This document shows positions 33,385-58,935 of a DNA stretch of 64,000 nucleotides, piece by piece. The stretch is from positions 1-64,000 of the forward strand of contig CAIRYQ010000032.1 in NCBI GenBank assembly GCA_903882875.1, given 5' to 3'. The notes beneath the pieces were generated by a model. It was not told the origin of the DNA and did no database searches. It saw nothing but the letters and a program-made list of their open reading frames with translations. The DNA is from an uncultured Spartobacteria bacterium (GTDB taxonomy: Bacteria > Verrucomicrobiota > Verrucomicrobiia > Chthoniobacterales > Chthoniobacteraceae). Each line of letters begins with the position of its first letter. Positions within the stretch are counted from its first letter, which is position 1. The translations under genes and the position numbers were made by a program.

Positions 33385-34578
33385 CTACAAATTTTCCGCC
33401 ACCCAGGTGAATTCGCGCGCGATGCTCCCCACCACATCAGCGGGGCGAATCTCGGCGGGGAGCACGTCGAACGTGTACGTCTCGATCTCCGCGTGGCTCG
33501 TCGCGCCTTGCCGGAGTTCGCGGAAAAAATCCGGCGTGAGCGTGGACACGGTGCTGGCGAGCGGGCCATTGCCTTGGAAAAAAAGAGGGACGTGGAAATG
33601 CACGCGCGTCTCGGCGACGCTGTAACGCCCGTCCTCGTCGGCGAGCGCGAGCGGCAGATCCGTCCACGAGCGCAGTGCGCCTGCGACAGTGCGCGCCTTC
33701 ACCTGATGAAGATAGACGCCCTCGGCGTACGGCTGAAGCGCATCCCAGCACGCCTTGTCGCCGCCGGTCATGAGCGCGGCACTGAGCTGCACCTTGGAAA
33801 TGCGGATGCCCTCGGCGCGGTAGGCGCGTAGCGCGGCGAGCGGATCCTCGAATTGCAGCGCCACATGGCATGTGTCAAAACACACGCCGATATGCCTGCG
33901 CAAAATCTCGCCGGCCTGCTGCGCATCACAGCCGCGGATTTTCCGCACAGCATCCGCGCCTTTCGTCCAGAGCGTGTCGCGGAAAAATGCGATCGTCTCC
34001 GCAGTGGTCTCAAGATAGCATGAAGGCTCGGGCTCGAGTCCGAGGTGGATTTCTCTGCCCGTGTCCTCGTGCAGCGCGGCGAGGTAGGCCGCGACTGCAC
34101 CGAGATTTTCAGCCATCAGCGCAGTGTCCTCAGGATTAGTGATCCACTCCTTAAAAGAACACGGCACGGTGCTGATCGATCCGTCCACGCCCTCGGGCAG
34201 CCAGCCCGCGAGGATGTCGGCGACCTGCATCGTATAGTCGCGCCGCGCGGGTGAACGCCAGTCGGGCGCATAGACATTTTGCTTCACCGGACCCGCGTGA
34301 AACTGGCCGTAAGGAAACGCGTTCACCGAGAACGGATACATCTGGTGTTCGGCAAAAAGATCGAGCGCCTCATTCCGCAACGCGGCATTGCCGGCGAGTT
34401 CCGCCGCCGCCTGCGCACTGAGCCGCAGCCCGAGGCCGAACCAGCCCTCCGGCGCGACAAATTGCTTCACGCGCACCGCCTTCTCGCGGATGGCCGCGAG
34501 ATTCTCCGCCCACGACTCACCGGGGTGGATGTTCAGGCAGTAGCTGAGATGGAGCGGTGGCTTGTGTTGGAGGATCAT
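33385..34578 (-). CDS. eboE: Metabolite traffic protein EboE (TIM-barrel)
   Basis: 397 residues. The xylose-isomerase-like barrel is marked by LHLSYCLNIHPGESWAENL near the start, SISTVPCSFKEW, LGLEPEPSCYLETT (acidic metal-like cluster) and IGVCFDTCHVALQFED. This matches the EboE family of the ebo cluster, which in cyanobacteria is needed to move a scytonemin precursor to the periplasm. It lies 32 bases after the eboD-like gene in the same direction. The ORF extends 44 codons upstream without family character. The transported metabolite here is unknown. Confidence 0.8.
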   Translation of the reverse strand: MILQHKPPLHLSYCLNIHPGESWAENLAAIREKAVRVKQFVAPEGWFGLGLRLSAQAAAELAGNAALRNEALDLFAEHQMYPFSVNAFPYGQFHAGPVKQNVYAPDWRSPARRDYTMQVADILAGWLPEGVDGSISTVPCSFKEWITNPEDTALMAENLGAVAAYLAALHEDTGREIHLGLEPEPSCYLETTAETIAFFRDTLWTKGADAVRKIRGCDAQQAGEILRRHIGVCFDTCHVALQFEDPLAALRAYRAEGIRISKVQLSAALMTGGDKACWDALQPYAEGVYLHQVKARTVAGALRSWTDLPLALADEDGRYSVAETRVHFHVPLFFQGNGPLASTVSTLTPDFFRELRQGATSHAEIETYTFDVLPAEIRPADVVGSIAREFTWVAENL

Positions 34579-34610
34579 TGCGGCGCGCGGGAACGAGGCA
34601 TACCGGCGCG

Positions 34611-35777
34611 CTACGCCCGCGGCAAGTTTTCCAAACAGCGCTGCATGAGCGGCAGATCGATCTCGTGCATCTCGAAGCGCGCGCCGATTCCCTGCGGAAA
34701 AGTGACGCATAATTCGCCGCCGAGGTGCTCGCGGAAATCGCGGAGGCCGGCGAAAATTTCCAGCTCTCCCGAGGCGTTGCGCACAAATGCCTCGTCGTGC
34801 ACCAGCGGGAACCCGCTCTGCCGCAACCCGCGATCGATCACCGCAAACTCGCCCGCGGAGATCCAGCCCTTCTCCTTCGCATAGCTCGAATCGAGCAGCA
34901 CGCCGAACGCGACCGCCTCGCCGTGGCTGATGCGGAAGCCGGACATGAGCTCCAGCTTGTGCGCCGACCAGTGGCCGAAATCGAGCGGGCGCGCGCGGCC
35001 ATATTCGAACGGATCACCATTGGAACGGATGTGTTCGAGGTGCTCGTCCGCGCAGCGATACACGAGTTCCTCCATCGCAGCGAGGTCGCGCGCCGGGAAT
35101 TTTCCCGCGTTTGCCGTGAGCCAGTCGAAAAACGCGCGGTCTCGGATGATGGCGACCTTCCACGCCTCGGCGACGCCGCAGAGCCAGTCGCGCTGCGGGA
35201 GCGAGACGAGAAAATCAAAGTCGTTCAGCACGGCGAACGGCGGGGCAAATGTGCCGATCGCATTTTTTCCGCCCATGAAATTCACGCCGTTCTTCACACC
35301 GACGCCCGCGTCGTTCTGCCCGAGCACCGTCGTCGGCACGCGGATCTGTCGTAGCCCGCGATGCACGAGCGCGGCGGCGAGGCCGACGGCATCCATTACC
35401 GCGCCGCCGCCGACGATGATGATGAACGACTGCCGGTCCATGTGCGCCTCCAGCATCAGCCGCATGAAGCCCTCGACGAGCTGGATGTCGTTTTTGATCG
35501 CCTCGCCGCCAGGCACGATGCGCGGCGCGAGCGCGAGATCGATCTGCGCGGTGTGCGCAGCGAAATAACCTTCGATCTCGCGCACCAGTTCGGGGCGCGC
35601 GGCGGCGACGTGCGAATCCACGAACACCAGCGCGCGATGGCGGCGATCCTCGCCGAGCCGGCGCATCGTCTCCACGAGCACGCGATTTTCTGCGCGGAAA
35701 AGCCCGTGCGTGAACGTCACCGGGAAATCCCACTTCACCGCGACGCGCTGCTCGATCGTCCGCGTCCCGCCGCTCAC
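34611..35777 (-). CDS. eboD: 3-dehydroquinate synthase-like protein of ebo cluster
   Basis: 388 residues from a GTG that overlaps the stop of the phosphodiesterase gene (GTGA). The dehydroquinate-synthase fold is clear: GGGAVMDAVGLAAA (nucleotide site), VPTTVLGQNDAGVGVKNG, and metal ligands expected at GVAEAWK (Glu), FGHWSAHKLE (His) and ISHGEAVAFG (His). It is a sugar-phosphate cyclase homologue; in ebo clusters it goes with EboE and a phosphodiesterase and need not make dehydroquinate. The symbol rests on this context. Confidence 0.8.
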   Translation of the reverse strand: MSGGTRTIEQRVAVKWDFPVTFTHGLFRAENRVLVETMRRLGEDRRHRALVFVDSHVAAARPELVREIEGYFAAHTAQIDLALAPRIVPGGEAIKNDIQLVEGFMRLMLEAHMDRQSFIIIVGGGAVMDAVGLAAALVHRGLRQIRVPTTVLGQNDAGVGVKNGVNFMGGKNAIGTFAPPFAVLNDFDFLVSLPQRDWLCGVAEAWKVAIIRDRAFFDWLTANAGKFPARDLAAMEELVYRCADEHLEHIRSNGDPFEYGRARPLDFGHWSAHKLELMSGFRISHGEAVAFGVLLDSSYAKEKGWISAGEFAVIDRGLRQSGFPLVHDEAFVRNASGELEIFAGLRDFREHLGGELCVTFPQGIGARFEMHEIDLPLMQRCLENLPRA

Positions 35778-37060
35778 CGCTGGCCCTCCATCCACGACTG
35801 CACCGCGCGCGCGAGGTCGAGCTGCGTCACGGGAAGCTGCGGCATTTTCAGCGACGAGGCCCACGCGACTTCGAGCCCTGCGCGGTTACTGCCGTGCGTG
35901 CCGCGGATATTGCGCGTGTCGAAACTCACGCTGCCCGGCGGCCAGCCGAAATAAAGTTCGCACGGGTCGTAGCCGGGCTTGTTGTGGATGTCCACGTGGC
36001 TCGCGTAATCGGGCGCCTCGTCGCGATCCGTGAACCAAGGATACGCAAACCACGCGCTCTCCGCCGCAGTGATCACAAGATCGCCGCTGCGCCGGTGCGC
36101 GATGCCGTGCTTTTCCTGATCATTCTTGTCCCATACTTCGGCCACGCCCGGCAGCGTGCGCAGCGCCTCGGCGGCGGCGAGCTTCGACGCCTCATCGCGG
36201 CAATAGACGTGCGCAAATCCGTGATCGCATACGGCAAATGCGCGGCCCGTGAAAAAATCCGTGTAGGCCATTCCTTCGATCGTGCGCGTGCCGAAGAGCC
36301 CGGCTTCGCGCAGGCGGCGGTTTGGAAAGACTGCGCCGTCGTGAACCTGCTCGATCGCGTAGTCGCCGAAGACGAGCCATTCGTAGCCGCACTCCGCGGC
36401 CTTCGCCTCGATGCGCGTGAGATAGCCGAGGAGGATGTCGAGCGCCTTGTCCGCCTCGCGGCTCACGGGGCCGTAGCGTTGCAGATCGTAGTCGAGGTGC
36501 GGAATGTAGGTGAAGAGAACGTCCGGCGCGACATCCGGCATCTCCATCACCGCGCAAGTCGCGTCCACGATCCAGTCGGACGACTTGTGGTTCGCGAGCG
36601 GGCCCCAGTAGTTCATGAGGTTGAAAGGGCGTCCGATTTTTTCCGTGAGCCGCGCCTCCAGCGACGCAGGCTGCGTGTAGCACGCCTGGATCATGCCGCC
36701 GCTGTGCTTGTGGATCGGCGCGGGCGTGACGACGAGATCCGCCGCCTCACCCATGCTCTGCTGCCAGAACATGAGGCCCACTTTTTTCCCGCGCGCGCGG
36801 AAATCGTCCCAGATGCGCGGGCCTTCCACGAGCGTCGCGCTTTGCTCCCAGAAGAGCACTTTCCGCAGATCGGAAAAAAAGAGGCCGTTCGCGACGAGGC
36901 CATTTTTCGAAGGCGTCGTGCCGGTGCGGAATGCGGCCTGCACCGGGCACGTCACCGCGGGAAAAATGCTCTGTACCGGACGGAACTCGGGCAGATGCGA
37001 CACGAGATTCCAACCGAGTGCGGCGACATCAACGACGAGCAGCTTGCTTTTGGCCGGCAT
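35774..37060 (-). CDS. Alkaline-phosphatase-superfamily phosphodiesterase of ebo cluster
   Basis: 428 residues from MPAKSKLLVVDVAALGW. The type I phosphodiesterase/nucleotide pyrophosphatase fold is shown by SIFPAVTCPVQAAFRTGTTP (about 34-53, the metal-site Thr/Ser region), YIPHLDYDLQRYGP (metal Asp and His) and later VCDHGFAHVY and HGSNRAG (metal His). No signal peptide is visible, so it is cytoplasmic. It heads the three-gene ebo group and overlaps the eboD-like gene by four bases. Genes for EboA, EboB and EboC are not in the window, so the cluster is incomplete here. Confidence 0.8.
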   Translation of the reverse strand: MPAKSKLLVVDVAALGWNLVSHLPEFRPVQSIFPAVTCPVQAAFRTGTTPSKNGLVANGLFFSDLRKVLFWEQSATLVEGPRIWDDFRARGKKVGLMFWQQSMGEAADLVVTPAPIHKHSGGMIQACYTQPASLEARLTEKIGRPFNLMNYWGPLANHKSSDWIVDATCAVMEMPDVAPDVLFTYIPHLDYDLQRYGPVSREADKALDILLGYLTRIEAKAAECGYEWLVFGDYAIEQVHDGAVFPNRRLREAGLFGTRTIEGMAYTDFFTGRAFAVCDHGFAHVYCRDEASKLAAAEALRTLPGVAEVWDKNDQEKHGIAHRRSGDLVITAAESAWFAYPWFTDRDEAPDYASHVDIHNKPGYDPCELYFGWPPGSVSFDTRNIRGTHGSNRAGLEVAWASSLKMPQLPVTQLDLARAVQSWMEGQR

Positions 37061-37473
37061 GGAGAGCGGCAAAGAGAATCAGCTTCGCGGGAAAAAGCTA
37101 GCCACGACATGAGTGCATTGATCCGCGGCGTGCAGCGCATGCAGTGGCACCATTCGCCGCCCGTGAAGGCGGGCGGGATTTTCGTCATGCCCATGATGGG
37201 GGTCATGGTGGCGCAGAGGTTGCCGAGGGATTTGTCGTTCTTGATGAGACGGCCCCGATGCTTCACGCCGATGCGCGCTCCTTCACTGCGTCGCGCTTTT
37301 CCTTCGGCTTGTTCACGGTCGCGGTGATTCTCCCAGGGCTGAATTGATCCCCGGCTCTTTCTGCCACACATAATGCACATCGCAGACGCCGCCGGCCACG
37401 CCATCATCAACCCCACAAACGCGACGATTGTCCGTTCATGTTCACGGGGACAATCGGAGTCGCTTTGCCCGGC
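37061..37473. other. Intergenic region without a supportable gene
   Basis: Small open frames on both strands (for example 37109-37327 on the plus strand) have no family character and no clear ribosome site. The region probably holds the promoter of the ebo group on one side. Confidence 0.4.
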
Positions 37474-39381
37474 CTACAGGTCCTTCTTCAATTCCGTTTC
37501 TTGCCGGCGTTTGAGCCCGCCTTCCGTCGCCGTCGGGTTCGGCAGGCCGTGCGATTCGCGGAGGAACTCCACCATGCGCAGCTCGTATTCGGTGAGCTTC
37601 TGGCTGCCGCCTGCGAGCGCATCAATCGCCTTCACATACGGCGCGATCTCGTCGTGCGACCAGTCAATCGCATTCAGCGCGAAGACCGTGGCCGACGTGT
37701 GCGCCTGCACCATTTCGGCGAGAGCCAGCCGCGCCTTCGCCGGATTGCCTGACTGGATCAGCACCCACGAGGCAATCGCGCGTTCCTCGCCGCAATCATC
37801 GTGCAGCACGCCTGCGAGCGCGGCCTGCGTGGGCGCGTCCGCTTTGCCGAGCACGAGCAATCCGATCGTGCCCCAATAGCGAATGCCCGAGTCCTTGCTC
37901 GCGAGCATTTCGGTGAAGCGCGCGTTGTTCGCAGGATTCTTCGCCAGCGCGAGGTCGGCGGCATCGAGATACGCGGGCAGATCGTAGAGCTTCGGGTCGC
38001 GCACCATCTGGTAGATGGTCGTTTTGCTTTCCGTTGCGCGGCGCACGCGCTCGGCCTCGGGGAGCAGGCCGGTGTCGTGAATGGCGAGCTGCCATTCGCG
38101 CAGTGCGGCGCGCATTTTTTCGAGCGTCTGCTGGTGCTCCGGCTTGTCGGCGAGATTCGTCACATTGTCCGGGTCCGCCTGCATGTCGTAGAGTTCCTCG
38201 TCGGGCTTGAGGTGAAAGAATGCGCCCGTGATTTCATTCGTGCGGCCATGCTTGAACGCATCCTCCCAAGTCCGCATCGCGACCATTTTCCACAGGTAGT
38301 CCAGATGCTGCCCCCACACGACGTAAGGCATGTAGTTCTTGATATAGACATACCGCTTGTCGCGCACCGCGCGCTGGTTGTCGAATCGCTCGTCCATGCG
38401 CTCGCGGAAGCTGAACACGTGCGCCGGCTCCGGCTCCGCCTTCGGCCCGAGGAACACGCGGCCCTGCATCACCGCCGGCACTTCCGAACCCGCGAGCGCG
38501 AGCCACGTCTTCGGCAAATCGAGGAAGCTCACGAGCCGGTCCACCGTCGTGCCGGGCTTCTCGGCGGGCCAGAGGTGCCTCCACTTTTCCGGGATGCGCA
38601 CGATGAGCGGCACATGGATGCCACTGTCGAAAAGGTAGCGCTTGCTGCGCGGCAGCACGCCGCCGTGATCGGAGTTGAAAATCACGATCGTGTCCTCGGC
38701 GAGGCCGGATTTTTCGAGGGCCGCGAGCGCCTTGCCGATCTGCGCGTCCATGTTCTCCACCGCGTCGTAATACTTCGCGTAATTCATGCGGATGGGCATC
38801 TCGTCCGGATGATATTTCGCCAGCGTGACGCTGCCCGGCGAATGCCGCGTGTTGGTCACTTCGCCCTGCGCCTGGCTCTCGTGCGACTCGTTGAAGTTGA
38901 TCACTTGGAAAAACGGCTGCCCATCTTTCCGCGCGCTCCAGGGCTCCGTACCGTGGCCGTCCCAACACGCGCCGTCCTCGCGTCCGCCGATGTTGTAGTC
39001 GGTCTTCACATGGTTCGCCGTATAATAGCCCGCCGCGCGGAGGTAGTCGGGGTAATACTTAATCTGATCGTGCGGGATCGCATAGCGGCTGCGCATCGGA
39101 TGCGTGCCCATCGAGATGGAATTGATGCCCGTGATCCAGGTGCTCCGCTGCGCCGCGCACACCGGCGCGCTCGCGAAGACATTCGTGTAACGGAAGCCCT
39201 GATTTGCAAACGCATCAATGTTCGGCGTCTTGGCCTCGGCATTCCCATAGCAGCCGAACCAGTCCACGCTCGAATCCTCGCAGACGAGCCAGAGGATGTT
39301 TGGCCGTGCTGGAGCATCAGCGGAGTGGAGTGCGGCAGGCGATGCGAGCAGCAGCGTTGCAAGCAGGCGGATGAATTTCAT
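37474..39381 (-). CDS. Secreted sulfatase, variant active-site motif CAAQR
   Basis: 635 residues with a signal peptide (MKFIRLLATLLLASPAALHS). The sulfatase core starts PNILWLVCEDSS. The formylglycine motif is VCAAQR (C75 to R79), where the third position is Ala instead of Pro but still fits C-x-(P/A)-x-R. Metal and substrate residues continue in IVIFNSDHGGVLP (near 255) and the C-terminal helical third (QTLEKMRAALREWQLAI). A maturase (FGE) is needed and is not in the window. It ends the minus-strand sulfatase run. Likely removes sulfate from a polysaccharide or glycosaminoglycan; substrate unknown. Confidence 0.85.
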   Translation of the reverse strand: MKFIRLLATLLLASPAALHSADAPARPNILWLVCEDSSVDWFGCYGNAEAKTPNIDAFANQGFRYTNVFASAPVCAAQRSTWITGINSISMGTHPMRSRYAIPHDQIKYYPDYLRAAGYYTANHVKTDYNIGGREDGACWDGHGTEPWSARKDGQPFFQVINFNESHESQAQGEVTNTRHSPGSVTLAKYHPDEMPIRMNYAKYYDAVENMDAQIGKALAALEKSGLAEDTIVIFNSDHGGVLPRSKRYLFDSGIHVPLIVRIPEKWRHLWPAEKPGTTVDRLVSFLDLPKTWLALAGSEVPAVMQGRVFLGPKAEPEPAHVFSFRERMDERFDNQRAVRDKRYVYIKNYMPYVVWGQHLDYLWKMVAMRTWEDAFKHGRTNEITGAFFHLKPDEELYDMQADPDNVTNLADKPEHQQTLEKMRAALREWQLAIHDTGLLPEAERVRRATESKTTIYQMVRDPKLYDLPAYLDAADLALAKNPANNARFTEMLASKDSGIRYWGTIGLLVLGKADAPTQAALAGVLHDDCGEERAIASWVLIQSGNPAKARLALAEMVQAHTSATVFALNAIDWSHDEIAPYVKAIDALAGGSQKLTEYELRMVEFLRESHGLPNPTATEGGLKRRQETELKKDL

Positions 39382-39431: not shown

Positions 39432-41939
39432 TCAGTGAAGTCCTTGGCTGCTTTGTCTCACATGCTGAACAATCCAGTCGCCGACGATTTGCAGTACCTC
39501 CGGCGACATCGTTTCCTCGATCCCGGCATACTCGCTTCCGGCCCCGGTCGGGCAGTGTTGAAACAGGTGGTTGAGGCCCGGCATCTCGCGGATGACGAAG
39601 TCGGTATGGCCCGAGACAGCCAGCGTGCGGGCGATGGGGCACAGGTTCTCTTTCGGCGGCACTTGCCGATCCTTCCCGCCGTTGAGCGCCAGCACGGGGC
39701 ACCGGACTTTTTCCAGCGCCGGCAAGCACGAGTGGGTGAGGGCGAACCGCGCCCACGGCGAGCGATAGTATGCCAACTGCTGCGCCACTGCCATCAGGTT
39801 CCCTTGGCTCTGGGCTGCCAGCAGCGGCAGCAACTGCCGCTCGATTTCGCTGCCATCGGCACCGCGCTTCGACAGGTCGAACCACCGTTTGAGCAGTTCC
39901 TCATGCTTCGTCAATTCTTCCTCCGTGGCGCCTCCCGCCTGGCCCGCCAGACGGTCCTGCTGCGGAGCGTTCTCCTCCCCGGTGGTGCCCACTCCTGCGA
40001 GCATCACGATGAACGCGGTGTCCGGCCAGTTCACGGCCAGGGTCGGCATGATGGTGCCGCCTTCGCTGTGTCCGATTGCGCCGGTGTGTTTCGGATCGAT
40101 GTCCTTGCGCCCCTTCAGGAATTCCATGCCCGCCACCGCATCGTCCGCGAAGTCGAGCGTCGTCGCCTGTTGGTAGTCGCCGGTGGATTTGGCCACGCCG
40201 CGCTTGTCGTAGCGCAAAACCGCCAGCCCGCGCCGTGTGAGATAATCGGACAGCAGGAGGAAGATGCGGTGCCCGGCGACGGATTCATCGCGCTCGAGTG
40301 GCCCGCTGCCCGCCACCAGCAGCACGGCGGGGAAAGGCCCCGCGCCCTTCGGGTGCGTGAGCGTGCCGGCCAGGGTCGCCTTCGCGCGCGGGTTGTCGAA
40401 CTGCACGTCTTCCTCGTCATATGGGAACGGTCGCTTCGGTTCTTGCGGATGCTGCGGCTGTGGCCTGGGCGCGGGCCGTTCCTTCGCCGCCGCGCGGAAT
40501 GCCTCGGCCTTCGCGGCGTCGGGCGTGCCGGGCTGCGGACGCCAGTCACGGGCGGGCGTGAATTTCGGATCGGCGGCCTGAAGTTCTTCGAGCGTCTCCA
40601 TATGGCGGCCGTGGTCGTCGGTGTCCACAATCCATTTTTCCAAAACTCCGCGCATCCGCGTGAGCGTGGCCTTCGCCTCGGGGCTGTCGGATTTTGCGAG
40701 GTTCGTAAGCTGCCACGGGTCGCTGTCCATGTCGTAGAGTTCCTCCTCGGGCATCGTGGGCTGCACGGCGAATTGCTGCGCGGGCGTGAGCTTACCCTCG
40801 GCTTGCAGCTTCGGCCACAGCGTCCAGACGGGATACTGCTCGGTCTTGTATTCGTTGAACGCGAGGAACGGCACCCACGGCGTAAAATCGCGGATGTAGC
40901 GCCAGCGCGTGTCGCGCACGCTGCGGATGCGCATCACGGTCATGTCGCAGCGGTCGCGGTAGCCGAAGATGTATTCGTTGTCGGGCTCGCAACGGTCGCC
41001 GAGGAAAATGCGACCCTGCATTTTCGGCGGCTTCGCGGCACCGGCGATGTCGAGCATCATGGGCGCGAGGTCAATGCCGTCGAGCAGCCGCGCGTCGCGT
41101 GTGCCGGGCGTGAAATGTGCGGGCGCGGGAAAATTCTTCGGCCAGCGGATGATGAGCGGTACGAGGAACCCCTCCTCGTAGCAGAACTGCTTGCCGCGCG
41201 CGTGCGACTGCCCGTTGTCGCCGAAGAATACGATGATGGTATTGTCCGCGAGGCCGTCGGCTTTCAGCGACTCGAGCACTTTGCCGATTTTCAAATCCAG
41301 CTCCGTGGCGGAGTCGAGATAGTCCGCCCAATCCTGCCGCACGATGGGATGGTCGGGATAGTAAGGCGGAATCTCCACCTTCGCCGGGTCGGCCTTTTTC
41401 GGCGCTTTGTAAGTGCGGTGCGTCTCGTGGAAATTCACCTGCGCGTAAAATGGCTGGTGCGTTTTCAAATCGTCCCACTTTGCCGAATCGAATGGCTTGT
41501 CGTTCGTGAGGAAATTCCAGTCCGTCTTTCCCGCGCCCTTGAAGCCGCACGACTCCGGCATCTGCACGAGGTTCGCCGTGAAGTATCCCGCATCGCGCAG
41601 CCAGCCCGTAAGCGGACGCACTCCGTCGGGGAGCATCTGCCTGTTTTTCGTGCGATGATTCTGCGCGCCGATGCTCGTCGCATACATCCCGGTCATGAAC
41701 GACGAGCGGCTCACCGAGCACACCATGCCGTCGTAGAAACGCGTGTAGAGCACGCCGTCGCTCGCGAGCTTGTCGAGGTGCGGCGTCCACACTTCCTTCG
41801 TGCCGAAGCAACCGAGGTGCTGCCCGAAGTCCTCGGCGATGAGCCAGAGAATGTTTGGCCGCGGCTGATCCGCGGCGAATGACGAATGACCGACGAGCAA
41901 CGACGACAGGGCGAGCGCAAGGATGAGGATGCGTTTCAT
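39432..41939 (-). CDS. Sulfatase fused to alpha/beta hydrolase
   Basis: 835 residues with a signal peptide. Residues 25-500 are a sulfatase (PNILWLIAEDFGQ; formylglycine motif VCSVSR, C74 to R78, with Val where Pro is usual). From about residue 515 a serine hydrolase of the dienelactone/alpha-beta type follows: AVLRYDKRGVAKSTG, nucleophile GHSEGG (S625), acid GGKDRQVP (D757) and base LNHLF (H791). The start overlaps the stop of the preceding sulfatase gene (ATGA). An enzyme that removes both a sulfate and an ester group from one glycan is a reasonable inference. The fusion is continuous with no frameshift. Confidence 0.85.
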   Translation of the reverse strand: MKRILILALALSSLLVGHSSFAADQPRPNILWLIAEDFGQHLGCFGTKEVWTPHLDKLASDGVLYTRFYDGMVCSVSRSSFMTGMYATSIGAQNHRTKNRQMLPDGVRPLTGWLRDAGYFTANLVQMPESCGFKGAGKTDWNFLTNDKPFDSAKWDDLKTHQPFYAQVNFHETHRTYKAPKKADPAKVEIPPYYPDHPIVRQDWADYLDSATELDLKIGKVLESLKADGLADNTIIVFFGDNGQSHARGKQFCYEEGFLVPLIIRWPKNFPAPAHFTPGTRDARLLDGIDLAPMMLDIAGAAKPPKMQGRIFLGDRCEPDNEYIFGYRDRCDMTVMRIRSVRDTRWRYIRDFTPWVPFLAFNEYKTEQYPVWTLWPKLQAEGKLTPAQQFAVQPTMPEEELYDMDSDPWQLTNLAKSDSPEAKATLTRMRGVLEKWIVDTDDHGRHMETLEELQAADPKFTPARDWRPQPGTPDAAKAEAFRAAAKERPAPRPQPQHPQEPKRPFPYDEEDVQFDNPRAKATLAGTLTHPKGAGPFPAVLLVAGSGPLERDESVAGHRIFLLLSDYLTRRGLAVLRYDKRGVAKSTGDYQQATTLDFADDAVAGMEFLKGRKDIDPKHTGAIGHSEGGTIMPTLAVNWPDTAFIVMLAGVGTTGEENAPQQDRLAGQAGGATEEELTKHEELLKRWFDLSKRGADGSEIERQLLPLLAAQSQGNLMAVAQQLAYYRSPWARFALTHSCLPALEKVRCPVLALNGGKDRQVPPKENLCPIARTLAVSGHTDFVIREMPGLNHLFQHCPTGAGSEYAGIEETMSPEVLQIVGDWIVQHVRQSSQGLH

Positions 41940-44077
41940 TGGATGATATGGAGGTTGCGGAAGCCCATCTCGCCTTCGAACGCGAGGAGGTTGAAGACGC
42001 CCTTCGGCTGCGCGATGACTCCGTGTTTCCCTTTCGCAATGACGCCGCCGATCTGCGCGGTGAGCTGCTCGCCTTTGAACGTGATGCGCAGCGTGTGCCA
42101 CGCATCGCGCTTCAGCTTCACCCGCTCGTGCGCGAGTTGGACGGTCTGGTCCTGCCCTTCGCCTTGCTCGGGGTTCTTTGCGATCTCGATGTGCCCGCCG
42201 CCGACCACCACGCGGAAGGAGTGCCTGTTGTCCGCGGTGTGGACGCGCACGGAAAGGCGGTCGGCGCCGCCGAGGTTGAACTCCACCTGGAGCGTGCCGT
42301 CGGTGATCGCGAGCGGGCCGCGCAGCGTCGCTGGCGTGGTGTTGTTCGGGGCCCTGCCCCAGACGGCGTTGTCGCGCTCCATCCATTTGCCGGGCGTCGA
42401 GATCCACGGCTTGCCGGGGATTTTCTGCAAAGGTTCATCGAGGACCATTTCGCCGTTAAGCGGCGGCAGTTCGACGATGGCTTCCTTCGCTTTCACAACC
42501 ACCGGCGGCAGCTCCCGGCTGTATCCTCCATCGCGCTGGCGGTTCAGCAGCGCGCGGAGTTCCGCGACGATCTCGGGATGCTCCGCGCTCACGTCCTTCG
42601 TCTCGGCGGGATCGTCGTGCATGTTGTATAGCTGCTCGTGGTATTCGTCCGCGTGCGCCTTGCGTGCGCCGGGTTTGATTTCATCCACCGGCACGCCCTC
42701 GATCCATTTCCACGGGCCTTTGCGAATCGCGAACACGCCATCGGCGCTGTGGACGATCATGTCCTCGCGGATCGGCTTCGCGGGATCGCCGAGGATCGCG
42801 GGGAGAAAATTGCGGCTGTCCTCCGCCGCCACCGATGCCGCAGGCAGCGGCTCGCCGACGATCGCCGCCGTCGTCGCGAGAATGTCCGCGAGGCTCACCA
42901 TTTCCTTGCTCACCGATCCTGCCGGCGCGTGTCCCGGCCAGCGCACGATGAAAGGCACCTTGAACCCGCCCTCCCACACGTGATGCTTGCCCCCGCGCAG
43001 GATGCCGTTCGTCACGAGGCCAGCGTGCCACGCCTTCGTGGACCACAGGTCTTCGCGCGCGAGTTCCTTCACGCCGCCGTTGTCGCTGGAGAAAATCACG
43101 AGCGTGTCCTTGGCGATGCCCATCTTGTCGAGAGTGTCGAGGATGCGGCCCACGCCGCGATCCAGCTCGGTGATCCAGTCGCAATACAGCCCGCCCTTGC
43201 TTTGCCCCGCGATGTCCTTGTCCGGCGTGATCGGCGCATGCACCGCGACCGGCGTGAAGTAGAGGAAGAACGGCTTGTCCTTCGGCTGCTGCTGCATCCA
43301 CGTCGTCGCTTTGTCCGCAAGCACCTTCATCACGCGCTGGTTCTTCCGGCGCGGCGCGTCGAGATCGAGGATCTTCACCGGGTTCTTCGGATTCTCCATG
43401 TCCTCGGGGCCGTAGGTTTTTTGGAAGTCGTCGTCCGTGTCCGCGACGGGCTTCAGCGTCTTCATGCTGTCGGGGATTTTCCCGCTGCGCAGCCCGTACA
43501 CGAACCGGTTCTCCACAAACACGCCCGTGAGGTCGCCGTGGTTGCTCGGCACGGAAAAGTGGTAGTCGAACCCGATGTCGAGCGGCCCCGGCGAAAGCTC
43601 CGCCGTGTAGTCTGTGCGCCACTTCGGCGAATCGTCCGCCGTTCCGTAGCCGAGGTGCCACTTGCCGACGGACGCGGTCGAGTAGCCGTGCTTTTTCAGC
43701 AGCGACGCCATGTTCAGCCGCGTGGGCTCGATGTGCAGCGGCGCGAACGTGCTCAGCACCTCGTGCGTCAGCGAAGTGCGCCAGCAATAGCGTCCGGTGA
43801 GCACCGAATAGCGCGTGGGCGAGCAGACGGACGAGGTCGTGTTCCCGTCCGTGAAGCGGCGGCCTTCCGCCGCGATGCGATCGATGTTCGGCGTCTTCAC
43901 CAGCTCGGGATTCGCACCGTAGCAGCCCGCGCTGCCGTAGCCGTAGTCGTCGCTGAGGATGATGACGATGTTCGGTTTCGCAGACGGCCGGTTGTCCGCT
44001 GCATGGGCCGTCGCATGAACCGTCGCGATACACGCAGCCAGCAGCACCGCGGCGAGTCTGAAGATGCTTGGTTTCAT
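41936..44077 (-). CDS. Secreted sulfatase with C-terminal jelly-roll-like domain
   Basis: 713 residues with a signal peptide. The sulfatase core has IVIILSDDYGYGSAGCYG and the canonical motif VCSPTR (C85 to R89), VGKWHLGYG and VIFSSDNGGVKEL. After about residue 530 a beta-rich domain follows (GKPWISTPGKWMERDNAVW, GTLQVEFNLGGADRLSVRV, HTLRITFKGEQLTAQIGG), like the DUF1080/LamG-type sugar-binding fold. Overlaps the metzincin gene upstream and the fusion sulfatase downstream (ATGA at both ends). Needs an FGE maturase from elsewhere. Confidence 0.9.
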   Translation of the reverse strand: MKPSIFRLAAVLLAACIATVHATAHAADNRPSAKPNIVIILSDDYGYGSAGCYGANPELVKTPNIDRIAAEGRRFTDGNTTSSVCSPTRYSVLTGRYCWRTSLTHEVLSTFAPLHIEPTRLNMASLLKKHGYSTASVGKWHLGYGTADDSPKWRTDYTAELSPGPLDIGFDYHFSVPSNHGDLTGVFVENRFVYGLRSGKIPDSMKTLKPVADTDDDFQKTYGPEDMENPKNPVKILDLDAPRRKNQRVMKVLADKATTWMQQQPKDKPFFLYFTPVAVHAPITPDKDIAGQSKGGLYCDWITELDRGVGRILDTLDKMGIAKDTLVIFSSDNGGVKELAREDLWSTKAWHAGLVTNGILRGGKHHVWEGGFKVPFIVRWPGHAPAGSVSKEMVSLADILATTAAIVGEPLPAASVAAEDSRNFLPAILGDPAKPIREDMIVHSADGVFAIRKGPWKWIEGVPVDEIKPGARKAHADEYHEQLYNMHDDPAETKDVSAEHPEIVAELRALLNRQRDGGYSRELPPVVVKAKEAIVELPPLNGEMVLDEPLQKIPGKPWISTPGKWMERDNAVWGRAPNNTTPATLRGPLAITDGTLQVEFNLGGADRLSVRVHTADNRHSFRVVVGGGHIEIAKNPEQGEGQDQTVQLAHERVKLKRDAWHTLRITFKGEQLTAQIGGVIAKGKHGVIAQPKGVFNLLAFEGEMGFRNLHIIQ

Positions 44078-44784
44078 TTCGATGAATCCGCCTGCGCCGC
44101 ACCCGCGGCCTTGGATTGCTGGAATTTCGCAGCGACCCCGCGCGCAGCCTGGATCTCCGCGTCGTTCAGCGAAAATCCCGTCGTGCCCGAGGCCATGAGG
44201 TTCGTGCGGTCCTGCCGGTGGCTCAGACTGAGCGCGTGTCCGATCTCGTGCGAAGTCACGCGCGGCAGCGGCTCGTCAATGCCGCCTTCGACCGCGCGCA
44301 GGCTCGCCGTGTCCTTCACCACGATCAGCCCGTTGTGGAAAAATCCGTTCGGCTTCACCTCCTTCACGTAGCAGACGTTCAGCGCCGTCGCGGCCAGGCT
44401 CGCCTTCGGGATCATCGCATGAACCCGCACGAACTCATCCTTCTTCTCCATCTCCGGCGACAGCACGGCGGCCTCGGTGCGGACGATGGACTCGATCTGA
44501 AAATGAACCCCGGCCTGCGCCCACACCATGTTCACCTTGCCGAAAATGCGGCGCACATCCGAATCCGTCATCGTCGTTTGCATCGCGGGCGTCGCCTTCG
44601 ACTGCACGAGATGCACGCGCACCGGCACCGTGAGCACCGGCAGCTTCGCCTCGGCCTTCGCGTCCTTCGCCGCCGGATCGCAAATGCCGCGTGGCACGGA
44701 TGCGATGACGATGAGGACGGCACAGAGTGCCCGGAAGACACCGGGATGGCGGCGGGACACGGCAGGGGGAATCGGCGGGGTCAT
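44074..44784 (-). CDS. Secreted metzincin-type zinc protease
   Basis: 236 residues with a signal peptide (hydrophobic 16-34, VFRALCAVLIVIASV). The extended zinc motif THEIGHALSLSH begins at about H179, giving HExxHxxxxxH (H179, E180, H183, H189), and a Met-turn lies in NLMASG (M197). This is the metzincin set. The domain is short, like small matrixins. It is translationally coupled to the sulfatase that follows, so it may process exported proteins, perhaps the sulfatases themselves; that is inference. Confidence 0.85.
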   Translation of the reverse strand: MTPPIPPAVSRRHPGVFRALCAVLIVIASVPRGICDPAAKDAKAEAKLPVLTVPVRVHLVQSKATPAMQTTMTDSDVRRIFGKVNMVWAQAGVHFQIESIVRTEAAVLSPEMEKKDEFVRVHAMIPKASLAATALNVCYVKEVKPNGFFHNGLIVVKDTASLRAVEGGIDEPLPRVTSHEIGHALSLSHRQDRTNLMASGTTGFSLNDAEIQAARGVAAKFQQSKAAGAAQADSSK

Positions 44785-44927
44785 CCGCGCTGTATAGCGA
44801 AACTCCCCGCAATTGCCCCAACTTCTTTCCCGCGCCGTCCGCGCCGGCATCCCGCAGAAATGGGTTCGCTTGGCAAAATGCATCGCTCCCATCCCCGATC
44901 CGGGACTTCCACGGCCATCGTCGGCGA

Positions 44928-49667: not shown

Positions 49668-49958
49668 TTAGGCGAGCCGCAGCTCCGCCAGCCAATCTTC
49701 GATCCGCGGACGCGGCATGATGCGATGTGCGGTCGTGTAGGCGTTGCCGCGCTGCCGCCATTTCGGCTCGGGATGCACGCGCACGGCCCAGAGCATGGAT
49801 TGCCAGTCGCGCAGAGAGATGGTGAAGCGCACGCCGTTCTCCGGGTTGCACACGGCGAGGCGGCGCTTTTCGCGGAGCAGGGCGAAGGTGGGCGTGCGCT
49901 GCGATGGTGGAACGCGACCTCCGGGCGCGTTTCGCTGGATGATCGCTGTTCGTCTCAT
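49668..49958 (-). CDS. Small hypothetical protein coupled to nuclease-methyltransferase
   Basis: 96 residues, basic and aromatic (SLRDWQSMLWAVRVHPEPKW). Its ATG overlaps the stop of the 1043-residue gene (ATGA). No family recognised. Position suggests an accessory protein of the restriction-modification gene, for example a regulator or inhibitor; this is inference. Confidence 0.55.
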   Translation of the reverse strand: MRRTAIIQRNAPGGRVPPSQRTPTFALLREKRRLAVCNPENGVRFTISLRDWQSMLWAVRVHPEPKWRQRGNAYTTAHRIMPRPRIEDWLAELRLA

Positions 49959-52900
49959 GGCAGTTTCAATTCAGGCAGTTCGCGGATGAGCTTCATCGTC
50001 TCCACGCTCACGGTGACGACCTGGCCGATGAGGCGCACGATGGCTTCCTCGTCGTCGGGCGGGTTCGGGTCGGAAGTGATTTCGCCGTCGGCGTTGCGGT
50101 CCACGCGGTATTGGTCGATCACCCAGGCGAGCGCGCTGCGGTTGCCGAGCCGGTATTCGTGAGCCTCCGGCGGGAGGCCGTGGAGGGTGAGCCACTCGTT
50201 GTAAATCACGGCGTCGCCTTCCTTGGTCAGTTTCATCGCCTCCACGCGCCAGTTCGGCGGCACCTCGTTGTTTTCGATGCGCTTGAGTTTGAAGGGCTTC
50301 ACCGACTCGTAGCCCACGTGCAGGTCGGCCAGCTTGCGGCCCGCGGTGGCGAAGGCGTGGAAATCCTTCGCCGTGCCGGTGAGAGGCGCGCGCGCTAGTT
50401 CGCAACGCAAATGCTCGGCGTAGCGCGAAGCATAGCCCGGGTGATGAAGGACACCGTAGATATAATAGAAGATGTCCTCTCGCGAGATGGCATCGTCACT
50501 GTAGTGGATGAGGAACCGATCAAGTATAGAACGCGGGATGTTGTCCCGCCGGTCGGTGCCGTCTTCGCTGTAGCTGTAAAGTGGAAAGCACTGTGTCGCG
50601 CATCCAAAGGATGCAAAATGAAGATCAACGACGCCGTCTGCCATGAGTGCCATAAACGGCTTCTCTGAACCAATGCCGGTCACGCATATCGCTCGGTTCT
50701 CCTTTCGCGCCTTCGCGTTCGGAAAGTAGTCACCAACGGATCCAAGGCGATCAACAAACAAGCCGGCAAAATACAGCGGCTTTTTTGTAAATGGACGGTA
50801 GAGCGCTTCCTGAATTCGCGCAGCATCGAACTCTGCTTCCACGCCTTCGATCAATCGCTTCTTCAATGTCTCGCTCCATTTGAGGCGAGGAGGGTCGAGA
50901 AAATCGTCGACGTATTTGCCGATACGTTTTCGATCCTTTGGCGGCTTCGCCTTTCTCCGCCAGCGCTCCAACTCGGCATTATAGTCGTCAGCAAACTTTT
51001 CCACGCGCGTTGCGAGCGTCGCCGCGTCGAAATCGTAAACGACCGCATCACGATTCGTGGAGACTCCAAGCGAGTAAGTTCGAAAGATTGTTCCGAGACT
51101 TCCGTTGCCCTGTGCGCGCGCTGCTTTGCTACCGAGCGGGAGGAAATTGGCGAACTCAGTGAAGGAACGAACCTCTTGGCCAATCCAGTTATGGCGAGAG
51201 TCGGGCGTGATTGGTTCAAAATGAACGCCTTTGATATCTTTAGTCTGATCCAGAAAGGCGCACTTCTGTTCTCTCCGCCAATCTATAGGCACTTCGTGAA
51301 ATAGAATCTTTGCGCGCCGCGGGCCGCTCCTTTTCCCCGGCAGACGGATGAAAAGATTGATGCTCACGCCGACCTGGATGCCGAAAACATTGTGTGTTGT
51401 GCCGGAGAGTTCCGGGTTCTTTCGCACGTTGCCGCCGAGATCGACCACGTAAATGAGATCGAAGTCCTGCTCGAGGTGCTTCCTCATTCCGTCGAACGAG
51501 CAATCGCGCAGGAAAGAGTTGTTGTTCACGTAGCACACGACGCCTGCTTCGCCGATGCGATCCGTGGCGAATCGAATGGCTTTGACGTAGGGATCGCTCA
51601 GCTTGCGCACAAGGGTGGCTCCGGAATCGGCGCTGTAGGTTCGCTTTACCTTGCCGTCGATCTCCGGGTATTTGCGGTTCTTGTTGTTGTCGTTCTCGTC
51701 GATCTGTCCGGCGTTGTAGGGCGGGTTCGCGATGATGACGCGGAGGTCTTTCACCGCACGCTGCTTCTTCACCCGCTCGCTGTTGGCTTCGTTGAAGATG
51801 TCGAATTCGCCCTGCTCCTTCTCGACCGTCTCGAAGGTGTCCACGAGGCAGATGCCCTCGAAGGAGTCGTATTGCTTCATCCGCTCGTAGTAGGCGTGCT
51901 CGATATTCATCGAGGCGACGTAGTAGGGCAGGAGGCTCACCTCGTTGCAGTGCAGCTCATGCGCGTATTTGTGCTTCAGGGCCGCGCCGGAGATGTGCTC
52001 GGGCTGCATGATGTTCACGATGAAATTCCCCGTGCCGGTGAAGGGATCGAGGATGTGGACGCCTTCCGCATCGAGCGAGGTTTTGAAATGTATGTCGAGG
52101 ACGTGCGCGACGCTGGCGATCATGAATTGCACGAGCGGCTGCGGGGTATAGACGACGCCGAGCACGTCGGCCTGCTTCACCGCGAAGCCCTGGAAGAACC
52201 GCTCATAGACGATGTTCAGGAACTTCTGCTTTTCGGTGAAGTCCGTGAAGGTCTCCGCGGCGGTCTCGACGGCGAGGTAGAAGGGATCGAGCGCCCGCAG
52301 GAAGTCGTCGCGCCGGAAATGCCGGTCGGAAATCGTGGCGATGACCTTCTCGATGTCGGAGGCGATGACGTTGCGCTCGCGGAAGTTTTCGATGTCGAAA
52401 ATCTTGCGCAGGATGCGCTCGGTGAGGAGATGCTGGACGAGCATTTCCTCGACGGCGGCCTCGGAGAGATTCGGGTTCAGCGAGCCGCGGCAGGTGGTGA
52501 CGAAGCCCGCGAAGGCGGCGGCGTATTTCGGGTTTTCCTTGCGCGCCTTTTTCAGGATCGCGGCGAGGGCCTTGCCGAGTTCGGGCACCTTGTCCTGAAA
52601 CTCGGCGACGGCGCTTTCCCACTGCGCGATGGCCTCGGGGGCGAATTCGAGGAACTTCCCGAGGATGGCGAGGAGCGCCTCGGGCTGGTCGAGCGGCACG
52701 TCGGCGATGCGCTGGCCGTGCTGGTAGAGGACGGCGCGGCGTGGCTCCCAGAAGAGGAGGTTTGCCGTGGGGTAGCCTTTGTCGATCTTCGCGCGGATTT
52801 CCTTGTCGAGGTCATCGCCGGAATCCTTCGCCTCCCAATGCCCGTGCTGGAGGCGGAAGAGATCCATGAGCGTGCCATCGGGCTGGATGCGCCGCCCGCC

Positions 52901-53086
52901 CTTGCCGCGCATGGAGTGCTCTGGGACGAGCTTCCAACCGAAGGGTTTCGCCGCAACTTCGAGGAGCGTGGCGAAGGCGGTCTTCACCGCGAGTTCATGC
53001 GTCGCGCCGAGCGTGCGGAAGGCGTCGAGCGATTCGTAATACGCGGCGACGGCCTTGTGACTTGGGCGGAGAGTCAGGCTCGGCAT
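49955..53086 (-). CDS. Type IIG-like restriction-modification enzyme (nuclease plus N6-adenine methyltransferase)
   Basis: 1043 residues. A PD-(D/E)XK-type nuclease is at the N-terminus: the PDGTLMDLF strand (D near 74) and HWEAKDSGDD (E-A-K). A gamma-class-type methyltransferase follows: motif I DPFTGTGNFIVNI (about 340), catalytic IANPPYN (near 447) and FxGG-type ends. The rest (about 600-1043) is target-recognition-like, with no helicase motif, so it is not a type ISP enzyme. It would methylate and cut the same site. Related fragments lie upstream. The 96-residue gene is coupled at its end. Confidence 0.85.
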   Translation of the reverse strand: MPSLTLRPSHKAVAAYYESLDAFRTLGATHELAVKTAFATLLEVAAKPFGWKLVPEHSMRGKGGRRIQPDGTLMDLFRLQHGHWEAKDSGDDLDKEIRAKIDKGYPTANLLFWEPRRAVLYQHGQRIADVPLDQPEALLAILGKFLEFAPEAIAQWESAVAEFQDKVPELGKALAAILKKARKENPKYAAAFAGFVTTCRGSLNPNLSEAAVEEMLVQHLLTERILRKIFDIENFRERNVIASDIEKVIATISDRHFRRDDFLRALDPFYLAVETAAETFTDFTEKQKFLNIVYERFFQGFAVKQADVLGVVYTPQPLVQFMIASVAHVLDIHFKTSLDAEGVHILDPFTGTGNFIVNIMQPEHISGAALKHKYAHELHCNEVSLLPYYVASMNIEHAYYERMKQYDSFEGICLVDTFETVEKEQGEFDIFNEANSERVKKQRAVKDLRVIIANPPYNAGQIDENDNNKNRKYPEIDGKVKRTYSADSGATLVRKLSDPYVKAIRFATDRIGEAGVVCYVNNNSFLRDCSFDGMRKHLEQDFDLIYVVDLGGNVRKNPELSGTTHNVFGIQVGVSINLFIRLPGKRSGPRRAKILFHEVPIDWRREQKCAFLDQTKDIKGVHFEPITPDSRHNWIGQEVRSFTEFANFLPLGSKAARAQGNGSLGTIFRTYSLGVSTNRDAVVYDFDAATLATRVEKFADDYNAELERWRRKAKPPKDRKRIGKYVDDFLDPPRLKWSETLKKRLIEGVEAEFDAARIQEALYRPFTKKPLYFAGLFVDRLGSVGDYFPNAKARKENRAICVTGIGSEKPFMALMADGVVDLHFASFGCATQCFPLYSYSEDGTDRRDNIPRSILDRFLIHYSDDAISREDIFYYIYGVLHHPGYASRYAEHLRCELARAPLTGTAKDFHAFATAGRKLADLHVGYESVKPFKLKRIENNEVPPNWRVEAMKLTKEGDAVIYNEWLTLHGLPPEAHEYRLGNRSALAWVIDQYRVDRNADGEITSDPNPPDDEEAIVRLIGQVVTVSVETMKLIRELPELKLP

Positions 53087-57024: not shown

Positions 57025-58602
57025 CTATTTTTTCACGCCCTTCATGAACTCGTCGCGCGAGATGAAGCCGTCCTTGTCCGTGTCGAACTTCTCGAACCGC
57101 GCCTTCGCACCGTCCTTGTCGGACGCGGTCGCGATGAACTCCTCGAGGCTCAGTTTCCCGTCGTGATTGAGATCGCGCTGGGTGAATCGCGCGACGCGCG
57201 GATCGGCATCCGCCGCCGGAGCAGCGGCATTCGCGCCCTTTTTCTTCGCGGGCATCGCGAGTTTGTTTGCGTCGGCGTCCTCGCCTTTCTCGCCGCCGAA
57301 TTTTTGCGACTGCTTCACGAAATATTCCTCGCGCGGGCCTTCGTGGCTTTTCAAAAGCGCGGCGAGTTTCACCTTCGCAACACGTGCCTCGTGATCGAGC
57401 GCGGGATCGGCGAGCGGGGATTTTTCGAGGTCGTCCTTGGCGACGTTGTAGAATTTCCCGTCGGCATGGAGCTTGTAGTTCTGGTCGTGCGCGAACTCGA
57501 ACTTCGCGGCCGGGCCGCCATCGGGGTTATACCAAGTGTAGCGCCCGTCGCGGGGATTCCCTTTCTCACCACGGAGCTGCGGGAGGAAACTGCGGCCGTC
57601 AATCTTCAGCTCGGCGGGCACCTTCACGCCCGCAGCCTCGCAGATCGTCGGCAGGAAATCCGTCACATCAATCATGTCGCTGCACACTTTCCCGCTCGCG
57701 AAATGTCCGGGCCAGTTGCCGATGCCGGGGACGTGCGTGCCCCACGTCGTGGACGTGCCTTTTCCACCGACGACATCGCGACCTTGGAAACGCGACGGCG
57801 TGCCGCGGCCCGTGCCGTTGTCGCCGAGGATGAGCACCAGCGTGTTGTCGCGCAGGTTCAGATCTTCGAGTTTCGCGATGAGCTTGCTGATGAGCTTGTC
57901 CGTGTAGGCGACCATGTCGGGGAAATGACCCAGCTTCGTCGTGCCGTCGCCGGCGGATTTCGACTGGAGATAGTCCGGGCCGTCCGGCGTCGCGTCGTAG
58001 GGCGCGTGCGTGAGCATCATCGGGTAGTAGAGGAAAAACGGCGCGTCCTTTTTCCGCTGGATGAAGTCGAGCGCGTAGTCGCTCACGATGTCGGGGCCGT
58101 ATTCGTTCTTCGAGTAGTCGTGCTGCTTGCCGTTGATTTCGAGGCCGGGATTCTTGTAGCGGCCCGGCCTGCGGTTGAGCTGCCAAAGCGCATACTCGTC
58201 GAAGCCAAAATGCCCCGGCCCCTCGTATTCACCCTTGAGCTGCCACTTGCCCGTGATGCACGTCGCGTAGCCCGCGTCGCGGAAAAAATTCCCGAACGTC
58301 TTCTGCGAAAAATCGAGGTGGCCGAAGTGCGTGTAGTTCCGCTTGTTGATGATGCCCGTCATCAGCGCCGCGCGCGTCGGCGTGCAGAGCGGCTGCACAT
58401 GCACCTGCTCGAAGCGCACGCCCGTCGCCGCGAGCCTGTCCATCACGGGCGTCTTGTAGCTCTCGCCGCCATTCGCGGTGACGCACTCGTAGCCGAAGTC
58501 ATCAATGAGGATGAGCACGACGTTCGGCTTTTTGTCCGCAGCATGGAGTGCGGCGTACGACGCAAACAGCAGAACAGTGATGAACCGGAGGAGGGTTTTC
58601 AT
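57025..58602 (-). CDS. Secreted sulfatase with C-terminal EF-hand pair
   Basis: 525 residues with a signal peptide. Sulfatase core: VVLILIDDFGYE, formylglycine motif LCTPTR (C73 to R77), TGKWQLKGEY and LVLILGDNGTGRG. The last 50 residues carry two EF-hand loops, DLNHDGKLSLEEF and DTDKDGFISRDEF, which bind calcium and are unusual on sulfatases outside PVC-type bacteria. Calcium-dependent attachment or folding is possible. The start MKTLLRF is inside a longer frame. It stands alone on the minus strand. Confidence 0.9.
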   Translation of the reverse strand: MKTLLRFITVLLFASYAALHAADKKPNVVLILIDDFGYECVTANGGESYKTPVMDRLAATGVRFEQVHVQPLCTPTRAALMTGIINKRNYTHFGHLDFSQKTFGNFFRDAGYATCITGKWQLKGEYEGPGHFGFDEYALWQLNRRPGRYKNPGLEINGKQHDYSKNEYGPDIVSDYALDFIQRKKDAPFFLYYPMMLTHAPYDATPDGPDYLQSKSAGDGTTKLGHFPDMVAYTDKLISKLIAKLEDLNLRDNTLVLILGDNGTGRGTPSRFQGRDVVGGKGTSTTWGTHVPGIGNWPGHFASGKVCSDMIDVTDFLPTICEAAGVKVPAELKIDGRSFLPQLRGEKGNPRDGRYTWYNPDGGPAAKFEFAHDQNYKLHADGKFYNVAKDDLEKSPLADPALDHEARVAKVKLAALLKSHEGPREEYFVKQSQKFGGEKGEDADANKLAMPAKKKGANAAAPAADADPRVARFTQRDLNHDGKLSLEEFIATASDKDGAKARFEKFDTDKDGFISRDEFMKGVKK

Positions 58603-58935
58603 ATTTTGGGCGGTGGCTGGCGGATGCGAAAATAACAGCGCAACCGCGTCACTTTGCCTTCTGTTTTCCGTTCTGCCTGCGTTTGCTCGGCTTGATCTCA
58701 AGCCGCATCACCACCTGTGAGCGGCAATTGAACAGTGCGGCGGGTGTCGGAACGAAGTGCGGCACCTGAGGGCGAATGAAGGCGATGCGCGGTGCGGGCG
58801 GTGTGGCTTACCGGCGTTTGAGGCGTTTCTTGGCGTCCTTGAGCCGATAGCTGTCGCCGTTGGCTTCGAGGCAAGGCTATATTCCGGCCACGGAATTCCG
58901 TTCACTGGATAACTCATGGAGAGTCCGCCATCCGA
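58603..58935. other. Intergenic region with a short IstB-like remnant
   Basis: Apart from the fragment at 58808-58876, no gene is visible. A 69-codon minus-strand frame (58708-58917) is the same stretch in another frame and has no family character. Confidence 0.4.
58808..58876 (-). pseudogene. Possible C-terminal fragment of IstB (IS21-type) ATP-binding protein
   Basis: Twenty-two codons ending LEANGDSYRLKDAKKRLKRR. The GDSYRL block resembles the C-terminal end of IstB helper proteins of IS21-type elements. A stop codon directly upstream shows the rest is gone. A chance match of this short stretch is possible. Confidence 0.35.

Follow-up and report, generated by a model that had tools for sequence, protein, structure and literature searches.

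In Formosa agariphila, the protein P36 carries an S1_25 sulfatase and a GH78 rhamnosidase, both of which are described as taking successive steps in the breakdown of ulvan (PMC8511951). The sulfatases S1_8A, S1_8B and S1_8C have been reported as galactose 2-O-sulfatases; S1_8A is a monosaccharide-specific galactose-2-sulfate sulfatase that acts on the free monosaccharide, and its catalytic acid is H202 (PMC12549532). No sulfatase-esterase fusion was named in the titles or abstract openings of the literature that we searched, and neither an S1_8-type sulfatase paired with an EstD-like hydrolase nor the second fusion treated below (L200) was met there. The words “fused”, “fusion” and “multimodular” are absent from the main texts of PMC9096561 and PMC8857213. 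Here we describe a fusion of this type in an uncultured Spartobacteria bacterium. The window, i.e., the whole stretch of DNA that was analysed, comprises 64,000 nucleotides, and all coordinates refer to it unless a locus is named.

The fusion gene and its neighborhood

A preliminary description had located a sulfatase fused to an alpha/beta hydrolase at 39432-41939, and these coordinates are correct, the gene lying on the minus strand. It is a single frame of 835 codons (41939-39432), free of internal stops and frameshifts, with the ATG at 41939 and the stop codon at 39432-39434. An alternative GTG upstream of this ATG would produce a 991-aa frame. We have taken the ATG as the start because a typical Sec leader (recognised by eye) comes after it and because it forms an ATGA with the overlapping stop of the upstream sulfatase gene. 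The protein is thus predicted to be exported. The features of the gene and of its immediate neighbors are as follows.

39432..41939, minus strand: fusion gene coding for signal peptide, S1 sulfatase, linker and alpha/beta hydrolase, 835 aa (open frame, Pfam)
41874..41939, minus strand: Sec-type signal peptide, approximately residues 1-22 (MKRILILALALSSLLVGHSSFA, then AD; read by eye from the sequence)
41706..41720, minus strand: formylglycine motif C74-S-V-S-R78, C74 being the residue to be oxidised (C and R in 44/44 aligned sulfatases)
41037..41858, minus strand: sulfatase domain PF00884, residues 28-301, within a sulfatase half that reaches to about residue 490 (Pfam; closest solved structure 9bb9, S1_8A)
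40455..40472, minus strand: junction, approximately residues 490-495, in a Pro-rich linker (from the ends and starts of homologues)
39435..40448, minus strand: alpha/beta hydrolase half, residues 498-835, with Ser625 (40065-40067), Asp757 (39669-39671) and His791 (39567-39569) (Pfam, alignment, model)
41936..44077, minus strand: upstream sulfatase with a CSPTR motif and a weak PF06439-like tail below cut-off (Pfam; nearest solved structure 6s20)
37474..39381, minus strand: downstream sulfatase (Pfam; nearest solved structure 9bba, S1_8C)

The gene had been said to lie between two coupled sulfatase genes. This holds in part: the upstream one overlaps the fusion gene by 4 bases, and the downstream one starts 50 bases past the fusion stop. 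The upstream sulfatase has as its nearest structure 6s20, a GalNAc-6-O-sulfatase, with S1_15A/B lower in the list. Taken together, these two neighbors would suit a galactose- or GalNAc-type glycan carrying 2- and 6-sulfates, a guess that leans on distant characterised relatives. The fusion gene is probably co-transcribed with both, i.e., with a 6-sulfatase-like and an S1_8C-like enzyme.

Several other genes of the window, all on the minus strand, may be mentioned. A frame at 44077-44832, which runs with its stop (44074-44076) into the start of the upstream sulfatase, has a weak Peptidase_M10 (matrixin) match below the cut-off. At 33385-37072 there are consecutive phosphodiesterase, dehydroquinate-synthase-like and weakly TIM-barrel-like genes, a row that we take to resemble the ebo metabolite-traffic cluster. 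A Type ISP restriction-modification enzyme was recognised by its Pfam domains at 49955-53086, and another sulfatase, with EF-hand matches at its C-terminus, is found at 57025-58701.

The two catalytic halves and their join

The Pfam search of the fusion protein found both domains complete, with all scores above the cut-offs. PF00884 scored 129.3 bits (cut-off 25) and was covered from position 1 to 301 of its 301, which places the N-terminal half among the S1 sulfatases, and SGSH_C was also above cut-off at residues 250-350. Ranking of the solved structures by sequence gave S1_8A first (1.7e-92), followed by S1_8B (1.1e-65), S1_8C (4.2e-50) and the next other sulfatase (1.5e-23), so that among the solved structures the half is closest to SulfAtlas S1_8. 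The fold comparison of the sulfatase model agreed, its first match being 9bb9 (S1_8A; E 5.3e-44, TM 0.85 by target length). S1_8A, which comes from Pseudoalteromonas distincta U2A (PDB 9bb9/9bes), is 36% identical to the sulfatase half over 493 Foldseek columns and shares its catalytic Cys and His: C74 and H174 map onto fGly82 and H202 (counted along the sequence alignment, with a numbering offset of one residue). It differs from the fusion in having no C-terminal hydrolase and in coming from a marine carrageenan locus.

We aligned the fusion with 43 relatives, hand-picked for spread from 63 translated sulfatases. Of the formylglycine motif and the catalytic Lys, His and Asp, C74, R78, K138, D241 and K250 were kept in 44/44 sequences and H174 in 39/44. 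The textbook formylglycine motif is CxPxR or CxAxR, from which the CSVSR of the fusion departs; this version is common to 7 of the 43 aligned relatives (over the 44 rows, CSPSR 19, CSASR 12, CSVSR 8 with the fusion included, CSAAR 2, CSTAR 2 and CSTCR 1). S1_8A itself carries CSTAR, and fGly82 has been modelled in one monomer of the two in its structure (PMC12549532), so that an unusual third letter of the motif is no ground for calling the sulfatase half dead. The genome contains 20 matches to PF03781 (FGE-type) above cut-off, among which there is presumably a true formylglycine-generating enzyme.

The C-terminal half has matches to Peptidase_S15, Hydrolase_4 and Peptidase_S9 at residues 523-791, each above its cut-off. 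A script located the triad at Ser625 (GHSEGG), Asp757 (GGKD) and His791 (LNHLF), and these three residues were invariant in 4/4 aligned hydrolases. A full sulfatase and a full Ser-Asp-His hydrolase had been claimed to share one frame without a frameshift, and the Pfam matches, the triad and the leader bear this out. The model of the full-length protein was good over the sulfatase half and poor over the hydrolase half (mostly pLDDT <50, with 3/46 of the other alignment rows covering the hydrolase), and it gives no information on the relative orientation of the two heads. For this reason the hydrolase half was modelled alone, on 4 sequences, reaching pLDDT 77.9 and pTM 0.81. This model contains a nucleophile elbow (strand 124-134, Ser135, which is Ser625 of the protein, and helix 136-147). 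With its fold (Z up to 23.7), the elbow and the Ser-Asp-His triad, the half belongs to the alpha/beta hydrolase superfamily.

The top folds were the alpha/beta hydrolase 7qjm (Z 23.7), the ferulic acid esterase 7z2v (23.0) and the thermophilic lipase 7q4j (22.7); these and 7z2u lay at Z 22.6-23.7, with rmsd 3.4-3.8 over 236-254 residues. Thioesterase DcsB, GrgF and the PETase PET46 followed close behind. The list also included dienelactone hydrolase and, at Z ~19-20, peptidases, prolyl and acylaminoacyl peptidases among them. Rows less than 1 Z apart were treated as tied, and likeness of fold does not determine the substrate. The half models as an esterase/lipase-like enzyme. The peptidase names of its above-cut-off Pfam families and the peptidases in the fold list could mean instead an S9/S15/S33-like hydrolase, of peptidase type or otherwise not acting on glycans, in which case there would be no pair of glycan enzymes. 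We consider this very unlikely, since esterases and lipases make up most of the top folds (Z 21-24), the curated model with the nearest score (EstD, below its cut-off) is an esterase and the half sits among sulfatases. Furthermore, S9 peptidases carry a beta-propeller, and there is none in the hydrolase half.

The best-scoring NCBIfam model, EstD (NF041096), gave 99.1 bits against a cut-off of 600, which rules out membership in this equivalog and makes the hydrolase half a relative of EstD. PF20434 was not among the Pfam matches listed for the fusion protein at E<=0.1. AMWEst, which is described as belonging to another esterase family (PMC10781878), was dropped as a comparison. The nearest sequences were those of two Acidobacteria records (L096 and L097, 48-49% identity), a Bacteroidales record (L104, 43%) and L148 (39%). 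All four are frames without a sulfatase, each with its own N-terminal region. EstD and the stand-alone L096, L097 and L104 have in common with the fusion the catalytic domain, with its start motif RPQxPxxPFPY, whereas the latter three have at the N-terminus an additional region of, very roughly, 120-300 residues (by eye, on stop-to-stop frames).

The homologues of both halves mark the position of the join. Close sulfatase orthologues stop just past a KERPA motif (one of them, L038, on a contig of the same-genus genome G002, ends with KERPA and a basic tail), and the hydrolase homologues start at RPQxPxxPFPY. In the fusion, KERPA is followed by a Pro-rich stretch ending in RPFPY, with which the catalytic domain of the hydrolases begins. 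This indicates that the sulfatase is complete up to about its natural end, and that the hydrolase has been deprived of its leader and its N-terminal region. Full-length homologues exist for each half (80% identity for the sulfatase, L037; 49% for the hydrolase, L096), and the fusion is therefore not a product of chance. The hydrolase half showed no sign of a foreign base composition: GC3 was 0.82, compared with 0.83 in the sulfatase half and 0.81-0.86 in four neighboring genes.

Occurrence of the fusion in other genomes

We searched 57 genomes with the fusion protein, scoring the best 17 candidates at most in each. Matches at E<=1e-60 were found in 20, the own genome included, and the own match alone extends past residue 500, i.e., the exact fusion is absent from the 56 relatives. 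A wider search over 387 genomes of the phylum (best two candidates at most scored per genome; 82 with a match at E<=1e-50, own included) had the same outcome, the own match alone passing residue 498 and none of the other 386 having the exact fusion. Nor was it present in any of 73 loci of the genome collection. The hydrolase half had no match at E<=1e-15 in 39 other genomes of the family. Over the phylum it was detected at E<=1e-20 in 9 of the 387 genomes, own included (best five candidates at most scored), and the sulfatase half was not found (E<=1e-10, short flanks) at the nine hydrolase loci of the eight others. Hydrolase matches at E<=1e-6 were present in 5 of 109 loci, two of them the window itself and three L096, L097 and L104, which had no sulfatase match. 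Among plasmids there were 358 matching records, none with one place covering at least 80% of the query, and no relative of the hydrolase half was found in viral contigs. One locus, L087, had been tabulated as matching “residues 1-630”; it proved to be the normal end of a sulfatase frame, without a hydrolase match. Within the own genome, sulfatase matches other than the fusion gene were confined to residues 2-461, and the search for a second hydrolase fusion gave 14 sulfatase-matching frames (11 stretches), none reaching past residue 445 of the fusion at E<=1e-6.

The halves are thus separate in every relative examined, an outcome that the preliminary description had itself set against its proposal. 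It speaks against a two-step enzyme that is old and conserved, but not against one that is young. As a singleton, the exact fusion shows no conservation across species that would point to selection for the joined form.

A singleton may also arise when contigs of different organisms are joined during assembly. The genome assembly consists of 129 contigs (completeness 96.18, contamination 1.92), the hydrolase half is missing from the rest of the family, and the counterparts in G002 are scattered: that of the sulfatase half has no relatives of the window neighbor genes within 11 kb around it, and that of the downstream sulfatase is on a different contig, next to a relative (38%) of the upstream sulfatase, so that the three-gene order of the window is not common to G002. 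On the other hand, the join is in frame and at domain borders, GC3 is similar on either side of it and in the neighbors, and the gene with the G002 counterpart, 75% identical, is the one that directly follows the hydrolase half. An assembly chimera is in our view highly improbable. The sequence points instead to a real and intact fusion, probably an active enzyme with two heads, and confined to one genome within the searches made.

Predicted function and comparison with other fusions

Other combinations of a sulfatase or an esterase with a second domain were found in related genomes. One analogue comes from the same class (L200:884-3451, contig C38 of genome G216), where a frame of 856 aa, stop to stop, contains a sulfatase (residues 128-436) and a BD-FAE esterase (614-817). 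Like the fusion it has the sulfatase at the N-terminus and an alpha/beta-hydrolase esterase at the C-terminus. However, the sulfatase is of another type (29% identity to that of the fusion, 31% to the upstream sulfatase) and the hydrolase is of another family (PF20434), so that L200 is probably an independent fusion. On contig C15 of the same genome (L208:2545-5009) a BD-FAE gene is located 53 bases upstream of an S1_8-type sulfatase, on the same strand. The sulfatase-esterase linkage therefore occurs both fused and adjacent. These G216 cases were found via long frames and table coordinates and are not a systematic count.

The BD-FAE search covered 194 genomes, and the 8 frames longer than 780 aa among the matches listed were read. 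They included one sulfatase with BD-FAE (L200), two BD-FAE with GH95 and one pectinesterase with GDSL and BD-FAE. In two genomes (L203:3576-7226 and L204:3890-7432) the esterase is fused to a GH95 catalytic domain, and the 808-residue frame of L206:2876-5299 has three consecutive esterase-type domains (pectinesterase, GDSL hydrolase and BD-FAE). By eye, L201 and L205 look like upstream read-through, and L202 and L207 have different N-terminal parts. Relatives of the sulfatase half were also found fused to a second sulfatase (L040:4809-7796, L164:1901-5158 and, in a Singulisphaera record, L060:6197-9253), to BNR_4 (L165), to a xylose-isomerase-like barrel (L167) and to a DUF5060 protein (L053). 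These are stop-to-stop frames with in-frame Pfam hits, chosen for their length, from which no rate can be derived.

The preliminary description had proposed a two-step enzyme for sulfated and esterified glycans. P36, L200 and L208 make this plausible, and joint activity would be its predicted part. We think it reasonably probable that a recent fusion, private to its lineage, has given rise to an enzyme with two functions, the removal of sulfate and of ester groups from sulfated glycans of the galactose type. In one lineage (probably Verrucomicrobiota, Chthoniobacteraceae), an S1_8-type sulfatase would have been joined at its end to a secreted EstD-like hydrolase, of which the catalytic domain would have been kept and the leader and N-terminal region dropped at the fusion. 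The protein would be exported once, as a two-headed enzyme. After conversion of Cys74 to formylglycine, the sulfatase head would take off a sulfate, most likely from O-2 of a galactose-type sugar, and the hydrolase head, through Ser625-Asp757-His791, may remove an acyl group (acetyl, feruloyl-like or another ester) from the same or a neighboring glycan.

It could also be that the fusion is fortuitous and without joint function, a working sulfatase having acquired recently a passenger hydrolase, active or not, for an unrelated ester. The single genome with the exact fusion among those searched would fit this, as would a hydrolase half unmatched in the 39 other family genomes and fold matches that span general esterases, lipases and thioesterases and not carbohydrate esterases alone. 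Still, the join respects the borders of both domains, neither the triad nor the frame shows decay, GC3 is even, and an analogous fusion of unrelated parts exists in L200; we regard a passenger as unlikely. As to the bifunctional enzyme, there would be little scope for its heads to act jointly on a polymer if the fusion, like S1_8A, acts on the free monosaccharide. A more specific version, in which a young, lineage-private enzyme strips O-sulfate and O-acyl from the same galactose-type unit, the S1_8 sulfatase having replaced the EstD-like N-terminal region in a new domain pairing that, together with L200, would represent repeated invention of sulfatase-esterase fusions, appears to us possible and somewhat unlikely.

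If both heads do share one substrate, the natural glycan would bear sulfate and acyl esters close together, and the protein would be a ready-made tool for the removal of both. Two sulfatase-esterase fusions of unrelated parts in one class hint at a recurrent need. As a system the fusion is an ordinary modular glycan enzyme, with several others in related genomes, and a sulfatase joined to a second enzyme of glycan breakdown is an already known kind, of which P36 is a proven example (PMC8511951). Bifunctional enzymes of the P36 type have two catalytic domains of one chain acting in consecutive steps; for the fusion, Pfam shows two complete domains, and action in consecutive steps would be the predicted part. 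The partner in P36 is a glycosidase, its sulfatase is of another subfamily and its activity has been proven, with the domains analysed separately (PMC8511951); what the two proteins have in common is a sulfatase and a second glycan enzyme, predicted in the case of the fusion, in a single chain.
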